Of a stretch of 34,226 nucleotides of DNA, positions 23,093 through 29,332 are shown in pieces. Under the pieces are notes generated by a model. That model was not told where the DNA came from and ran no database searches. It was given only the letters and a program-made list of their open reading frames with translations. The position numbers and the translations under genes were made by a program. How positions within the stretch are numbered: the first letter of the stretch is position 1; the number at the start of each line of letters is the position of its first letter. This DNA is from a bacterium (GTDB lineage Bacteria > Actinomycetota > Acidimicrobiia > Acidimicrobiales > RAAP-2): assembly GCA_027365055.1 (NCBI GenBank), contig DAHXOD010000006.1, positions 1-34,226 on the forward strand. Reading direction: 5' to 3'.

Positions 23093-23158
23093 TCCGCCGC
23101 TCAGACATAGCCCGCGGCTCCGCCGCTCAGACATAGCCCGCGGCGCCGCCGCTCAGAC
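23081..23158. repeat. 26-bp tandem repeat (3 copies) spanning the nadA 3' end and stop codon
   Basis: GTAGCTCGCGGCTCCGCCGCTCAGAC (23081-23106), ATAGCCCGCGGCTCCGCCGCTCAGAC (23107-23132), ATAGCCCGCGGCGCCGCCGCTCAGAC (23133-23158). Confidence 0.95.
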
Positions 23159-24268
23159 GGTGGCGAGCATCCGTTCCAACGCCACCCGGGCCCACACCGC
23201 AGTGTCCTCGTCGACGCGGATCCGGTTGCGCACCTCGCCGGCCACCAGTCCCTCGAGGATCCACGCCAGGTGGGCGGCGTCGATGCGGAACATGGTCGAG
23301 CAGGGGCAGACCTGGGGATCGAGCGACTGGACCGTCTTGGTGGGGTGCTCGGCGTCCAGGCGGTTGACCAGGTGGATCTCGGTTCCCACGCCGATGACCG
23401 CCCCGTCGGGGGCGTTGGCCACCGCGTCGATGATGAAATCGGTCGAGCCCACCAGGTCTGCTGCCTCCACGACGTCGTGGGAGCACTCCGGGTGCACCAC
23501 GGTGATGCCGTCGGGGTGCGCCTCACGGAAGGCGGCCAGCTGTGCCGGCCGGAATCGCTGGTGGACCGAGCAGTGGCCCTTCCAGAGCAGGAGGGCGCGG
23601 CCCTTGATCGACTCGCCGTCCAGGCCTCCCCGTTCGAGGCCGGGGTCCCAGACGGCCATGTCGTCGTGGCCGTATCCCAGGGCGAACCCGGTGTTGCGCC
23701 CGAGATGCTGGTCGGGGAAGAACAGGACCTGGTCGCCCTGCCCGTCCCGTTCCCCCCGCGTTCCGATCGCCCAGGCCAGAACGGCACGGGCGTTGGACGA
23801 GGTGCACACCACGCCCCCGTGGCGACCGACGAACGCTTTGAGGGCGGCGGAGGAGTTCATGTAGGTGACCGGAACCACCCGTTCGACGTCGGTGGCCGAG
23901 GCCAACACGGTCCACGCCTCTTCCACCGCGTCGATGTCGGCCATGTCCGCCATCGAGCACCCGGCGTTCAGGTCGGGGAGCAGCACCTGCTGGTGGTCAC
24001 CGGTGAGGATGTCGGCCGACTCGGCCATGAAGTGCACGCCGCAGAACACGATGTACTCGGCCTGGGACTGCTCCGCGGCGATCCGTGACAGCGCGAACGA
24101 GTCGCCGCGGGCGTCGGCCCAGGCCATCACCTCATCTCGCTGGTAGTGGTGGCCGAGGACCAGGACCCGGGACCCGAGCACCGACTTGGCGGCGCCGATC
24201 CAATCGGCGAGCGCCTCGGGGGTCGCGGTGGAGTAGCGGTCGGGGAGCGCCGTCTGCAGTCGGACCAT
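23153..24268 (-). CDS. nadA: Quinolinate synthase A
   Basis: LVLGHHYQRDEVMAWAD, FCGVHFMAESADIL, YMNSSAALKAF, GGVVCTSSNA, HPECSHDVV, QVCPCSTMFRI (Fe-S Cys). Start MVRLQTALP at 24268 with CCAGGAGA RBS; longer ORF is over-extended. Confidence 0.93.
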   Translation of the reverse strand: MVRLQTALPDRYSTATPEALADWIGAAKSVLGSRVLVLGHHYQRDEVMAWADARGDSFALSRIAAEQSQAEYIVFCGVHFMAESADILTGDHQQVLLPDLNAGCSMADMADIDAVEEAWTVLASATDVERVVPVTYMNSSAALKAFVGRHGGVVCTSSNARAVLAWAIGTRGERDGQGDQVLFFPDQHLGRNTGFALGYGHDDMAVWDPGLERGGLDGESIKGRALLLWKGHCSVHQRFRPAQLAAFREAHPDGITVVHPECSHDVVEAADLVGSTDFIIDAVANAPDGAVIGVGTEIHLVNRLDAEHPTKTVQSLDPQVCPCSTMFRIDAAHLAWILEGLVAGEVRNRIRVDEDTAVWARVALERMLATV

Positions 24269-24364
24269 GTCGTCTCCTGGTTCCTCGGTGTGCTCCGTCG
24301 AGAGCCGGCGGGGACAGCCTGGTCGCCCGTCCGCGGGGATGTCGGCCCCGGAGTCACGGTGTCG

Positions 24365-24376
24365 CCTGATGTCAGG
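24365..24376. promoter_or_regulatory. Short palindrome CCTGA-TG-TCAGG in the nadA-uvrC intergenic region
   Basis: CCTGA (24365-24369) / TCAGG (24372-24376). Confidence 0.35.
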
Positions 24377-24382
24377 TCGTGC

Positions 24383-24402
24383 GTCTCCGGGTGACCGGAG
24401 AC
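24383..24402. promoter_or_regulatory. Perfect inverted repeat GTCTCCGG-GTGA-CCGGAGAC
   Basis: 8-bp perfect arms, 4-nt loop (GUGA, GNRA class, if + strand is transcribed). Confidence 0.7.
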
Positions 24403-24430
24403 CATGCGCCGGAGTCCAGGCCGGCGCATG
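24403..24430. promoter_or_regulatory. Perfect inverted repeat CATGCGCCGG-AGTCCAGG-CCGGCGCATG
   Basis: 10-bp perfect arms, 8-nt loop, directly abutting the previous inverted repeat. Confidence 0.7.
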
Positions 24431-24433
24431 GCC

Positions 24434-24439
24434 AGTGTA
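24434..24439 (-). promoter_or_regulatory. Putative -10 box (TACACT) of nadA
   Basis: Reverse complement of AGTGTA; places the predicted TSS near 24427, about 160 nt from the nadA start; no clear -35. Confidence 0.35.
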
Positions 24440-24501: not shown

Positions 24502-26433
24502 GTGGTGCGACGACCTCCCGCCGGCTCGATCCCGGATGCACCCGGCTCCTATCAGTTCCTCGATCAGGACGGCCGGGTGCTCTACGTCGGGAAGGCCAAG
24601 TCCCTCCGCCAACGGCTCGGTTCCTACTTTCAGGATCCCTCCGCCCTGGCGCCCCGGACCGCACAGATGGTGGCGCAGTCGGACCGGGTCGAGTGGATGG
24701 TGGTCAACAGCGAGGCCGAGGCCCTGCTGCTCGAGCACAACCTGATCTCGCGTTGGCAGCCCCGGTACAACGTGCGACTGAAGGACGACAAGAGCTACCC
24801 GTGGCTGGCGGTCACCGTCGCAGATACCTGGCCCCGGCCGGCGGTGGTCCGGGGGCGGAAGCGATCGGGGGTGCGCTATTTCGGCCCGTACCCCAACGTC
24901 GGGGCGATCCGCGAGACGCTCGATCTGCTGCTGCGCTCGTACCCGCTACGGACGTGCACCGACGGAAAGTTCCGGAGGCACGAGCGGCTGGGGCGACCGT
25001 GCCTGCTCTTCCACATCGACCGCTGCTCGGGACCGTGCGCCGGCGAGGTGGGGCGGGAGGAGTACGACCGGATGGTCGCCGACCTGATGGTGTTCCTCGG
25101 GGGCGAGACGAGCGCGCTCGAGCGCGGGCTCGAGGAGTCGATGCGGGCCGCCGCGTCGGCCCTCGAGTTCGAGCGGGCGTCCGTCTGGCGCGACAAGCTC
25201 GAAGCGGTCCGTTCGGCCGATGCGGTGCGTCAGATGGAGCTGGCGACCGGTGAGGACGTGGACGTGATCGGCATGGTCGAGGACGAGATCGAGGCCGCGG
25301 TGCAGGTCTTCCACGTGCGTTCGGGGAAGGTGGTCGGCCGACTCGGGATCCTGGTCGACAAGGTCGAGGATCTGTCGGCTTCCGCCCTGATGGCCCGGGT
25401 GCTGGTGGATGTCTACGCCGATCCGGCCGCCGGCGTCCCGGGCAGCATCCTCGTCCCGGTGCTCCCCGAGGACGCCGACGCGGTCCGGTCCTACCTGGCG
25501 GAACGCCGGGGGGGAGCCGTCGCGCTCCGGGTTCCCCTGCGGGGTGCGAAGCGGGCGCTGCAACAGACGGTCGAGCGCAACGCAGCAGAAGCGTTCCGCC
25601 GGCACCGCCTGCAGCGGACGTCGGACCACAACAGCCGGGCACGCGCCCTCGAGGCCCTGCAGCGGGAGCTGTCGCTTCCCGTGGCCCCGCTGCGCATCGA
25701 GTGCTACGACATGAGCCACCTGCAGGGCACCGATTACGTGGGTTCGATGGTGGTGTTCGAGGACGGGTTGGCGAAGAAGAGCGACTACCGACGGTTCAAC
25801 GTGGTCACCGTGGACGGCAACGACGACTACGCGGCCATGGAGGAGGTGCTGTCCCGCCGGTTGACGGCGCTGGTGGAGGACGAGCGCGAGGAACCCGCCT
25901 CGGAGCGGTCCCGTCGGAGGTTCGCCTACCCGCCGCAGCTGCTGCTGCTCGACGGCGGGTTGGGACAGCTCCATGTCGGGGTGCGGGTGCTCGCCCGTCT
26001 TGGGCTGACCGACCGGGTGCCCATCGCCTCGCTGGCCAAGAGTTTCGAAGAGGTGTTCGTGCCCGGTCGCGACCAGCCGATCCGGCTTCCCCGCCAGTCC
26101 GAGGCCCTCTACCTCCTGCAGCAGCTCCGCGACGAGGCCCACCGGTTCGCCATCTCGCACCACCGCGCACGGCGCGGGGCCCGCATGACCACCGGTGTGC
26201 TCGACGGGATCGAGGGCCTCGGGCCGAAGCGGCGTACCCGCCTGCTCGACCAGTTCGGTGGGCTGACCGCTTTGCGCGCCCTGTCGAAGGACGAGCTGAC
26301 CGGGGTGACCTGGTTGCCGGCCGCGGTCGGCGCGGCGGTGTTCGATCGGCTCCACACCCCGCTCTCACCGGAGCGCGGACCAACGGCCCGGCGTGGATCG
26401 GCCCGGGGGAGTCGTGGGAAGGTGGGGGAGTGA
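24502..26433 (+). CDS. uvrC: Excinuclease ABC subunit C
   Basis: GIY-YIG region IPDAPGSYQFLDQDGRVLYVGKAKSLRQRLGSYF; RIECYDMSHLQGTDYVGSMVVFEDG; C-terminal HhH GIEGLGPKRRTRLLDQFGGL. GTG start at 24502 preferred. Confidence 0.95.
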   Translation: MVRRPPAGSIPDAPGSYQFLDQDGRVLYVGKAKSLRQRLGSYFQDPSALAPRTAQMVAQSDRVEWMVVNSEAEALLLEHNLISRWQPRYNVRLKDDKSYPWLAVTVADTWPRPAVVRGRKRSGVRYFGPYPNVGAIRETLDLLLRSYPLRTCTDGKFRRHERLGRPCLLFHIDRCSGPCAGEVGREEYDRMVADLMVFLGGETSALERGLEESMRAAASALEFERASVWRDKLEAVRSADAVRQMELATGEDVDVIGMVEDEIEAAVQVFHVRSGKVVGRLGILVDKVEDLSASALMARVLVDVYADPAAGVPGSILVPVLPEDADAVRSYLAERRGGAVALRVPLRGAKRALQQTVERNAAEAFRRHRLQRTSDHNSRARALEALQRELSLPVAPLRIECYDMSHLQGTDYVGSMVVFEDGLAKKSDYRRFNVVTVDGNDDYAAMEEVLSRRLTALVEDEREEPASERSRRRFAYPPQLLLLDGGLGQLHVGVRVLARLGLTDRVPIASLAKSFEEVFVPGRDQPIRLPRQSEALYLLQQLRDEAHRFAISHHRARRGARMTTGVLDGIEGLGPKRRTRLLDQFGGLTALRALSKDELTGVTWLPAAVGAAVFDRLHTPLSPERGPTARRGSARGSRGKVGE

Positions 26434-27281
26434 GCGAATACCTGGTGGTCACCGGCATGTCCGGGGCGGGGCGCTCGACGGCGGCGGCCACCCTCGAGGA
26501 TCTTGGATGGTTCGTGATCGACAACATGCCCCCCGCCCTGATCTCGAAAGTGTCCGAGCTGGTGGACGGCGCGGGGTCGGAGATGGAGCGGGTGGCGCTG
26601 GTCGTCGGTCGGGGTGGCGGGGAGCTCGACGACGTGCTGCCGGCGATCGACGCCCTCCGCGCCGGCCGCCACCGCGTGCGGATCCTGTTCCTCGACGCCG
26701 CCGACGACGTGCTGATCCGCCGGTTCGAAGGAACCCGGAGGCGTCACCCTCAGGTGGCTCGCGGCGTGGAGGAGTCGGTGAGCGACGAGCGACGGCTCCT
26801 CGCCGACCTCCGGGACCGTGCCGACCTGGTCGTGGACACCGGCGACCTGAACACCAACCAGCTTCGGTCCCGGTTGCTCGAGGTGTTCGGCGAGGAGGAT
26901 GCCGGGGCCACCATGCGCACGTCGATCCTCTCCTTCGGGTTCAAGCACGGCGTGCCCATCGACGTGGATCTCCTCTTCGATTGCCGGTTCCTTCCCAACC
27001 CGTACTGGGACGAGGCGCTTCGCAGCCACAGCGGGCTCGAAGCGCCGGTCCGGGCGTACGTGCTCGAACGGCCGGAGACCGCCGCGTTCCTCGAAAAGCT
27101 CGAGGACCTGCTCGACATGCTCCTCCCGGCGTACGTGCGGGAGGGGAAGTCCTACCTGACCGTGGCGATGGGCTGTACCGGGGGGCGGCACCGTTCGGTG
27201 GTGCTGGCCGAGGAGCTCGGCCGACGGCTCGGTGCCCGCGGCGTCCCCGCCGCCGTGTTCCACCGCGACGTCGACCGGTGA
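26430..27281 (+). CDS. rapZ: RapZ-family nucleotide-binding protein
   Basis: VVTGMSGAGRSTAAATLEDLGWFVIDNMPPALI; SFGFKHGVPIDVDLLFDCRFLPNPYW; VAMGCTGGRHRSVVLAEELG. GTGA overlap with uvrC. Confidence 0.93.
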   Translation: MSEYLVVTGMSGAGRSTAAATLEDLGWFVIDNMPPALISKVSELVDGAGSEMERVALVVGRGGGELDDVLPAIDALRAGRHRVRILFLDAADDVLIRRFEGTRRRHPQVARGVEESVSDERRLLADLRDRADLVVDTGDLNTNQLRSRLLEVFGEEDAGATMRTSILSFGFKHGVPIDVDLLFDCRFLPNPYWDEALRSHSGLEAPVRAYVLERPETAAFLEKLEDLLDMLLPAYVREGKSYLTVAMGCTGGRHRSVVLAEELGRRLGARGVPAAVFHRDVDR

Positions 27282-28156
27282 ATCGGTCCGGCGGAGACCA
27301 GATCCGGGTGGTGGCGATCGGGGGTGGCCACGGGCTGGCGGCGACCCTCCGTGCCGTGCGGACCCTCACCGACGCGGTCACCGCGGTGGTGTCGGTCGCC
27401 GACGACGGCGGATCCTCCGGACGGCTGCGCGAGCTGCTCGACATCGTGGCGCCGGGGGACCTGCGCAAGTGCATGGTGGCTCTGGCCGAGCCCGGCTCGT
27501 TGCTGGCCCGGGCGTTCGCCCACCGGTTCACCGAACAGGAGTTGGCCGGCCACGCGCTCGGCAACCTGATCCTGGCCGGGCTGATGGAGGTTGCCGGCGA
27601 CACCGTCGCCGGCATCGACGAGGCGTGCCGCTTGCTGGGCGTGCGCGGGCGGGTGCTGCCGGCGACGTCCACGCCGGTCGTGCTCGAAGCGACCTCGGAG
27701 CTGGGCCAGGTGGCGGGCCAGGTGGCGGTGATGGAGATGACCGGTCTACGGCAGGTGACCCTGGTGCCACCCGACGCACCGTCTCCGCCGGAGGCGATCG
27801 ACGCGATCGAGGAGGCCGACCTGATCGTGATCGGACCCGGTTCGCTGTACACCAGCGTGCTCGCCGCCGTGGTGGTGCCCGGCGTGCTCGACGCCGTCCG
27901 TCGCACTCGGGCCCGGACCGCGTATGTGTGCAATCTCCGCCCCCAGGAACCCGAGACGGCCGGGTTCGACGTGGGTATGCACCTCGCTGCCCTGGTCGCC
28001 CACGGCGTGCACGTCGACGTCGCGGTGGCCGACCTCGCGGGCATGGCCCTTGGCGAGCCCGGCGTGCCGGTGGTCACCGGCGACCTGGCCAGGCCCAATG
28101 GGCTCGCCCACGACCCGGCGAAACTGGCGAACGTCCTCGCCGATCTGCTCGGGTGA
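27278..28156 (+). CDS. yvcK: YvcK/CofD-like (gluconeogenesis factor) family protein
   Basis: VVAIGGGHGLAATLRAVRTL, VSVADDGGSSGRLRELLDIVAPGDLRKCMVAL, IGPGSLYTSVLAAVVVPGV. GTGA overlap with rapZ. Confidence 0.92.
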   Translation: MNRSGGDQIRVVAIGGGHGLAATLRAVRTLTDAVTAVVSVADDGGSSGRLRELLDIVAPGDLRKCMVALAEPGSLLARAFAHRFTEQELAGHALGNLILAGLMEVAGDTVAGIDEACRLLGVRGRVLPATSTPVVLEATSELGQVAGQVAVMEMTGLRQVTLVPPDAPSPPEAIDAIEEADLIVIGPGSLYTSVLAAVVVPGVLDAVRRTRARTAYVCNLRPQEPETAGFDVGMHLAALVAHGVHVDVAVADLAGMALGEPGVPVVTGDLARPNGLAHDPAKLANVLADLLG

Positions 28157-28179
28157 CGACCCGGTGGTCCCGTTTGCCC

Positions 28180-28306
28180 TAGCTTTGTCGCTGCGGATCA
28201 CCGGGATCCACGGAACCAGGGGAGATCGCATCGCCGATGCGCTCCCGGGTTGGAGCAACGATCGTGTCCGGCCAGTGCTTGCCGGACGGAATGAGGTAGT
28301 GGAGCC
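28180..28306 (+). promoter_or_regulatory. Candidate gap promoter (TAGCTT, 28180-28185) and structured 5' leader
   Basis: Two hairpins: GGGAG-at-CGCAT-cgccg-ATGCG-CTCCC (28220-28246) and GTCCGGC-cagtgctt-GCCGGAC (28266-28287), before the gap ATG at 28307. Confidence 0.45.
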
Positions 28307-29332
28307 ATGACCGTTCGGGTCGGGATCAACGGGTTCGGTCGGATCGGGCGCAACTACGTGCGCGCCGTCCGGGCGCTCGGAGCTGACGTCGAGGTGGTCG
28401 CGGTCAACGACCTCACCTCGGCCGCGACCCTGGCCCATCTGCTGGCCTATGACTCGACCCACGGCCGCTTCGGCTCCGAGGTGGCGGCCGTCTCCGATCG
28501 GATCGAGTTCGACGGGAAGGGCATCCGGGTGCTGGGAGAGCGCGACCCGTCGGCACTCCCCTGGGGCGAGCTCGGAGTGGACGTGGTGGTCGAAGCGACC
28601 GGACTCTTCACCTCGCGGGCGACGGCCGCGGCCCATCTGGAAGGGGGCGCCTCGCGGGTGATCGTCTCCGCCCCTGCGACCGATGTCGATGCGACCTTCG
28701 TGGTCGGAGTCAACGACCACCAGTTCGATCCGGAATCCCACGTCGTGGTGTCCAATGCGTCGTGCACCACCAACTGCTTCGTCCCTCTGGTCAAAGTGCT
28801 CGACGACGCGTTCGGGGTCGAGTCGGGCCTGATGACGACCGTGCATGCGTTCACCAACGACCAGAACCTGCTCGATTTGCCGCACAAGGATCTGCGACGG
28901 GCTCGGTCGGCTCCGGTCAATATCGTCCCGGCGTCGTCGGGCGCGGCCCGGGCCACCAAGCTGGTACTGCCGCTGATGGAGGGAAGGCTCGACGGCGCCG
29001 CGTTGCGGGTGCCGGTCGCCGACGGTTCCATCACGGACTTTACCGCCGTGGTTCCCGGTTCGGTGACCGTCGACCAGGTGAACCAGGCGTTCGCCTCGGC
29101 GGCTGGGTTCGGGCCGCTCTCCCGGGTGCTCGACTACACCGAGGCCCCGATCGTCTCGTCGGACATCGTCGGCAATCCGGCGTCGTGCACGTTCGATGCC
29201 GGGCTCACCATGGTGATGCCGTCGGCCTCGGGGATCTCGCTGGTGAAGGTGCAAGGCTGGTACGACAACGAATGGGGCTATGCGAACCGCCTCGTCGACT
29301 TGTCGCTGATCGTGGGCGGTGCCGGCGCCTGA
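28307..29332 (+). CDS. gap: Glyceraldehyde-3-phosphate dehydrogenase, type I
   Basis: VRVGINGFGRIGRNYVRA, SNASCTTNCFVPL, VHAFTNDQNLLD, QGWYDNEWGYANRLVDL. Confidence 0.95.
   Translation: MTVRVGINGFGRIGRNYVRAVRALGADVEVVAVNDLTSAATLAHLLAYDSTHGRFGSEVAAVSDRIEFDGKGIRVLGERDPSALPWGELGVDVVVEATGLFTSRATAAAHLEGGASRVIVSAPATDVDATFVVGVNDHQFDPESHVVVSNASCTTNCFVPLVKVLDDAFGVESGLMTTVHAFTNDQNLLDLPHKDLRRARSAPVNIVPASSGAARATKLVLPLMEGRLDGAALRVPVADGSITDFTAVVPGSVTVDQVNQAFASAAGFGPLSRVLDYTEAPIVSSDIVGNPASCTFDAGLTMVMPSASGISLVKVQGWYDNEWGYANRLVDLSLIVGGAGA

Follow-up and report, generated by a model that had tools for sequence, protein, structure and literature searches.

We find that most of the nadA leaders examined in Acidimicrobiia carry a conserved structured RNA, which in the 34,226-nt stretch of DNA analyzed here (the window) extends from 24430 to 24293 on the minus strand and is about 138 nt long, compared with about 95 nt in relatives. 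The layout common to the nadA upstream regions of this class consists of a –10 box, a hairpin (SL1) with the loop CCUGG, a short linker, the 5′ strands of the stems P0 and P1, the bulge ACANCCCC, P1a, a loop CCAGG, the closing strands, the ribosome site and AUG. Covariation among aligned leaders shows that this leader contains a conserved kissing-loop RNA structure in which SL1 docks alongside the bulged stem through its loop. The element is likely to be a variant of the NAD+-I aptamer with a single domain and a kissing hairpin and, as we infer for both ligand and direction of control, would repress nadA when an NAD(H)/ADP-type ligand is plentiful. The preliminary description had proposed that NAD synthesis is controlled here by an RNA in cis that might be a relative of NAD+-I, and this is supported by covariation, by strand asymmetry and by a resemblance to the Rfam nadA motif (RF03013).

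The core of the element is formed by the outer stem P0, the inner stem P1, an 8:0 bulge (ACAUCCCC in the window), P1a and an apical loop, all on the minus strand. The 5′ strand of P0, CUCCG, occupies 24349..24353 and its 3′ strand, CGGAG, 24293..24297, the latter placed by P0 covariation and by covariance-model alignment of the window; P0 covaries at seven of seven consensus pairs, five of which form in the window. P1 is a covarying helix of GGCCG (24343..24347) and CGGCU (24303..24307) that runs on through a 3′ bulge into P0, and the last two letters of its 5′ strand, C and G, stand at the places of NAD+-I C6 and A7. The J1 bulge at 24335..24342 is near-invariant in the 100-sequence alignment (columns 59–66 of alignment A3). 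It is followed by the P1a 5′ strand GCGG (24331..24334), which pairs with CCGC (24308..24311) in a covarying helix whose second pair exchanges C-G for U-A with 31 double changes; P1a has four fixed pairs, its interior pairs vary or mismatch, and its 3′ strand is almost always 7 nt long. The apical loop CCAGG (24318..24322) is the 3′ half of the kissing helix and pairs with the SL1 loop CCUGG at 24416..24420, and its last G is also the first letter of a GCUG junction (24315..24318) that is nearly invariant in the main clade.

When 62 leaders were aligned with MAFFT, covariation was evident in SL1, P1, P1a and the helix between the SL1 loop and the apical loop; P0 was added from a trimmed alignment. 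R1, a covariance model built without the kissing helix, gathered and aligned 100 leaders, in which 98.2% of cells are paired and both-side changes occur at 23 of 28 pairs; none of 500 shuffles scored as high, and slid controls were 23 to 47% paired. The kissing helix itself has five base pairs that are fully Watson–Crick in 100/100 leaders, in eight sequence combinations (CCUGG/CCAGG, CCGGG/CCCGG, CCCGG/CCGGG, CCAGG/CCUGG, CUCGG/CCGAG, CUUGG/CCAAG, UCCGG/CCGGA and CCCAG/CUGGG), whereas shuffling of partners across the 95 distinct sequences left 56 of them complementary on average and 69 at most. All four Watson–Crick pair types are seen at its central pair, related sequences not being independent. 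Across the alignment, G-U cells outnumber A-C cells by 57 to 10 (p = 4e-9), and the RNA strand is therefore the nadA-sense strand.

These data bear on two further readings that the preliminary description had raised. The first, a double operator in DNA over the nadA promoter for an NAD-responsive repressor such as NrtR or NiaR, draws on palindromes that abut the –10 box; it leaves unexplained a covarying pseudoknot between sites tens of nucleotides apart and the asymmetry of G-U and A-C cells, the element lies downstream of the –10 box, neither a NiaR nor an NrtR domain turned up in 19 genomes searched from the family of the window, and we regard this reading as very improbable. The second, an RNA on the uvrC side or a bidirectional terminator, we consider more improbable still: uvrC is divergent at 56 of 61 loci and a GUGA loop would form on the plus strand, but the strand asymmetry favors nadA sense, no U-tract terminator was found at the element, and five element-bearing loci show no uvrC upstream, including L051, L063 and L075, in which the leader persists.

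The gene that follows the leader in the window (23153..24268, minus strand) is nadA, as had been predicted, and encodes quinolinate synthase (PF02445, E = 4e-90, with phmmer matches to solved NadA structures); its Shine–Dalgarno (SD) sequence AGGAG lies at 24274..24278 on the minus strand, 6 to 10 nt before the ATG. Its divergent neighbor uvrC (24502..26433, plus strand; PF08459 and GIY-YIG, with an inferred start codon) lies outside the element. The minus-strand TACACT at 24439–24434, from which a nadA transcript had been projected, is a conserved, predicted –10-like box directly upstream of SL1, with T in 58 and A in 56 of the 62 aligned orthologous leaders; its distance to SL1 is similar across these leaders, at 8 nt in the window and identical in the same-genus locus L002. 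No sigma-70 consensus pair was found at the nadA leader. Elsewhere in the window the order rapZ-yvcK-gap is present (27275–28307), but yvcK (CofD/YvcK domain) and gap lie too close together to accommodate whiA, which usually separates them in actinobacteria.

Two abutting perfect inverted repeats had drawn attention to this leader, and both are present, GTCTCCGG/CCGGAGAC at 24383–24402 and CATGCGCCGG/CCGGCGCATG at 24403–24430, the latter extending by one further pair to 24402–24431. A third, described as a palindrome (CCTGATGTCAGG, 24365–24376), is indeed an inverted repeat of 5 + 5, with a TG center that makes it imperfect. The 73-nt minus strand folds with a predicted energy of –41.6 kcal/mol (z = –5.3), and no shuffle was equally stable. 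The assignment of these repeats to a regulatory RNA holds for 24403..24430 (minus strand), which is SL1 (CAUGCGCCGG-CCUGGACU-CCGGCGCAUG), fits the consensus SL1 ACGCCGGCCUGGUAUCCGGC and has a stem that is conserved and covaries in orthologous nadA leaders, the comparison that had been suggested for it. It fails for the other two, which lie in a lineage-specific insertion between SL1 and the core (24365..24402, minus strand) composed of the hairpin GUCUCCGG-UCAC-CCGGAGAC and an SL1-like hairpin CCUGACAUCAGG. This insertion is missing from the same-genus loci L002, L011, L014 and L016, and the 24383–24402 repeat was rejected as part of the conserved RNA on that ground. R1 aligns 24365–24384 as SL1, but with broken pairs; we rejected this choice of 24365–24376 in favor of 24403–24430, where the stem is intact, the loop is CCUGG and the distance to the promoter is correct. 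The SL1-like hairpin with its broken pairs (about 24365–24382) is perhaps a decayed SL1 duplicate. The linker is also lengthened in L065, and together with the insertion in the window this indicates that the linker can accommodate insertions, in keeping with a kissing contact that is tertiary. The hexamer GTCTCC occurs both in the SD region (24271–24276) and in an arm of the inserted hairpin (24383–24388), and the 5′ arm of the insertion may pair with the SD of the window (GGAGAC), possibly by chance.

The strongest conservation lies outside these repeats, in about 50 nt downstream of them (24304–24353) that the preliminary description had passed over. When the leader was used as a DNA query against 172 family genomes, 65 of them gave matches, almost all confined to query positions 36–85, which correspond to this segment, at up to 98% identity between genera. 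R1 scores 64.6 bits in the window (24384–24290, minus strand) and matches 99 of 395 genomes of the class, nearly all with a single copy. Among 68 Acidimicrobiia nadA loci fetched by NadA similarity, the element precedes nadA in 61, of which 59 match at E ≤ 1.4e-6 and two (L092 and L094) more weakly. Conversely, nadA adjoins 49 of the 52 R1-match loci examined, the three exceptions being weak matches (E > 0.02). The element was not seen in some nadA-bearing lineages (e.g., L070, L081, L088, L090 and L093), and in a sample of 397 genomes of the phylum R1 found no match outside Acidimicrobiia.

The element is not in the Rfam catalogue: at gathering thresholds the window returns two tRNAs only, with no family over its cut-off at the leader. 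In a permissive search over 4227 families, RF03013 (NAD+-I, the nadA motif) appears at the right place and on the right strand (24347–24301, minus) at a score of 12.2 bits (E = 7.8), and in two divergent members it is the best of the 4227 families (L179, 17.8 bits, E = 0.28; L172, 15.4 bits, E = 1.4); the score in the window and those in the relatives tested, at most 17.8 bits, are far below the gathering score of 37.5 bits. Over 198 genomes of the class, RF03013 found nothing above its cut-off; the eight best sub-threshold matches lie away from any nadA and appear fortuitous. Unrelated sequence in genomes of the class scores 20 to 28 bits with this model, and homology to NAD+-I rests accordingly on position and anatomy, not on score.

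We compared this anatomy with NAD+-I using the Rfam consensus and the published numbering. In NAD+-I, the ACANCCCC bulge lies between P1 and P1a, adenine contacts C6:G47, and G16:C45 opens P1a (PMC7297122); the second domain always follows in tandem, as described from Acidobacteria (PMC10702441). The element likewise precedes nadA and has an 8-nt ACANCCCC bulge between P1 and P1a with nothing opposite, kept as ACAUCCCC in the window; the equivalents of C6:G47 (A3 columns 57:99) and G16:C45 (A3 columns 67:97) are C-G and G-C, respectively, in 95/95 sequences, and a P1a 3′ strand of about 7 nt follows a conserved G. The P1a of NAD+-I has 7 bp; that of the element has the four fixed pairs named above and a 3′ strand that is almost always of 7 nt. 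The GCUG junction occupies the place of the GYG J2 loop, yet it is not GYG (compared with PMC7708056 and PMC7297122). In NAD+-I, G36 and G38 of this loop pair with C14 and C13 (PMC7297122), and the G36C mutation abolishes binding (PMC7708056); in the window and the main clade the loop reads CUG, with G38 kept and G36 replaced by C, which changes one of the two contacts. The divergent L163 has GCG at this place, and there are divergent members without a G38 equivalent. NAD+-I has a second bulged domain in tandem, with the ribosome-binding site in P1′, whereas the element has a single bulged domain: only one ACANCCCC was found in the window leader, and among 61 relatives a second was found only in L034, L041 and L066, where it lies either within the anti-SD strand or close to uvrC, far upstream. 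The apical loop, not conserved in NAD+-I, is in the element kissed by the upstream hairpin, and the hosts differ, Acidobacteriota for NAD+-I and Acidimicrobiia for the element. We do not assign it to NAD+-I itself; judged by this comparison, it is probably a variant that would work like NAD+-I domain 1.

Two readings other than an NAD+-I relative keep some weight. A conserved structure that precedes just a single gene would be compatible with autogenous control as well, with the leader binding a protein (e.g., NadA itself or an unknown RNA-binding repressor) instead of a small molecule; we think this unlikely, given that the single-stranded bulge, near-invariant here, is the same as the one that binds ADP in NAD+-I and that the best of 4227 Rfam families in divergent members is a nadA riboswitch. 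Slightly less probable again is a riboswitch of separate origin for another ligand (NaMN, quinolinate or ATP) that converged on ACANCCCC. The differing J2, the missing tandem domain and the divergent members lacking a G38 equivalent speak for it, but chance is unlikely to have produced an 8:0 bulge of identical letters and flanking pairs before the same gene, and the E-value of L179 per family is about 7e-5 (0.28/4227). Among other riboswitches, NAD+-II (the pnuC motif) resembles the element in its NAD-related gene and its pseudoknot and differs in gene and sequence, and its Rfam model has no match in the leader at E ≤ 10. The tandem glycine riboswitch and the domain 2 arrangement of NAD+-I share with the element the docking of a second RNA element on the ligand-binding domain; the partner here is a plain hairpin with a loop–loop helix, not a second aptamer. 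In the open-licence literature on NAD+-I variants, the nadA motif and Acidimicrobiia or Actinobacteria, we found no report of such an element.

For the NAD+-I-like variant that we favor, the following mechanism can be proposed. SL1 would form first, and the core would then fold as P0-P1, the 8-nt ACANCCCC bulge, P1a and the apical loop. As covariation shows, the CCAGG of this loop kisses the CCUGG loop of SL1 and thereby docks SL1 beside the bulged stem, where SL1 would take the place of the second tandem domain of NAD+-I. The ACANCCCC bulge beside the P1 C-G pair is most likely a pocket that grips ADP, like domain 1 of NAD+-I, and binding of the ligand would stabilize P1/P0. P0 is immediately followed in most relatives by a CCUCC strand with which the ribosome site (GGAGG/GGGGG) can then pair, and this pairing would lessen nadA translation; the CCUCC strand is also a possible partner for the GGAG of P0, and such competition would result in ligand-induced repression. 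Of 59 leaders, 46 place the SD in a hairpin that immediately follows P0, a modest enrichment over the 33.4 expected from shuffling. In the window this hairpin is absent and an SD-pairing strand is not obvious; in its minimum-energy fold the SD is paired to the 5′ strand of P0, and such pairing would speak for control of the opposite sign. A search for an NrtR-type regulator, as the preliminary description had suggested, found neither NiaR nor NrtR domains in the 19 family genomes searched, which fits RNA-based control; across 31 genomes, NiaR (3H) occurs in 0 and NrtR_WHD in 2, neither from the family of the window, whose own genome (1.72 Mb) is 64% complete.

The role of domain 2 and the exclusion of ATP in NAD+-I are disputed (PMC10702441, PMC7708056, PMC10043782). 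As a naturally occurring relative that has one domain and another docking partner and is distributed across Acidimicrobiia, the element offers a direct test in which ligand specificity is compared with and without the kissing helix. More tentatively, and with somewhat less confidence than not, we propose that it constitutes a separate NAD+ (or adenylate) riboswitch architecture, a single ADP-binding bulge domain completed by a kissing hairpin instead of a second aptamer, possibly with a specificity against ATP that is lacking in NAD+-I RNAs in vitro. The element also lends support to a published view of the ADP-binding bulge as a module that can be reused (PMC7297122).

Finally, several leaders depart from the common layout. 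L054, L057 and L058, from the IMCC26207 lineage, retain the kissing loops and have the bulge ACUUACCA in place of ACANCCCC, a natural variant that is a candidate for an altered ligand. In the divergent L160, L158, L161 and L163 the bulge is CCAUCCCC or ACAUCCCC, the apical loop is a tight one of the GCCAGG type, and the GCUG junction is lacking. The nadA leaders of L174 (G187:C236:5747-5804) and L156 contain P0, P1, ACAUCCCC and P1a but lack the CCAGG apical loop, and SL1 is not evident in them; they may represent a form without the kissing helix that is nearer to an isolated domain of NAD+-I.
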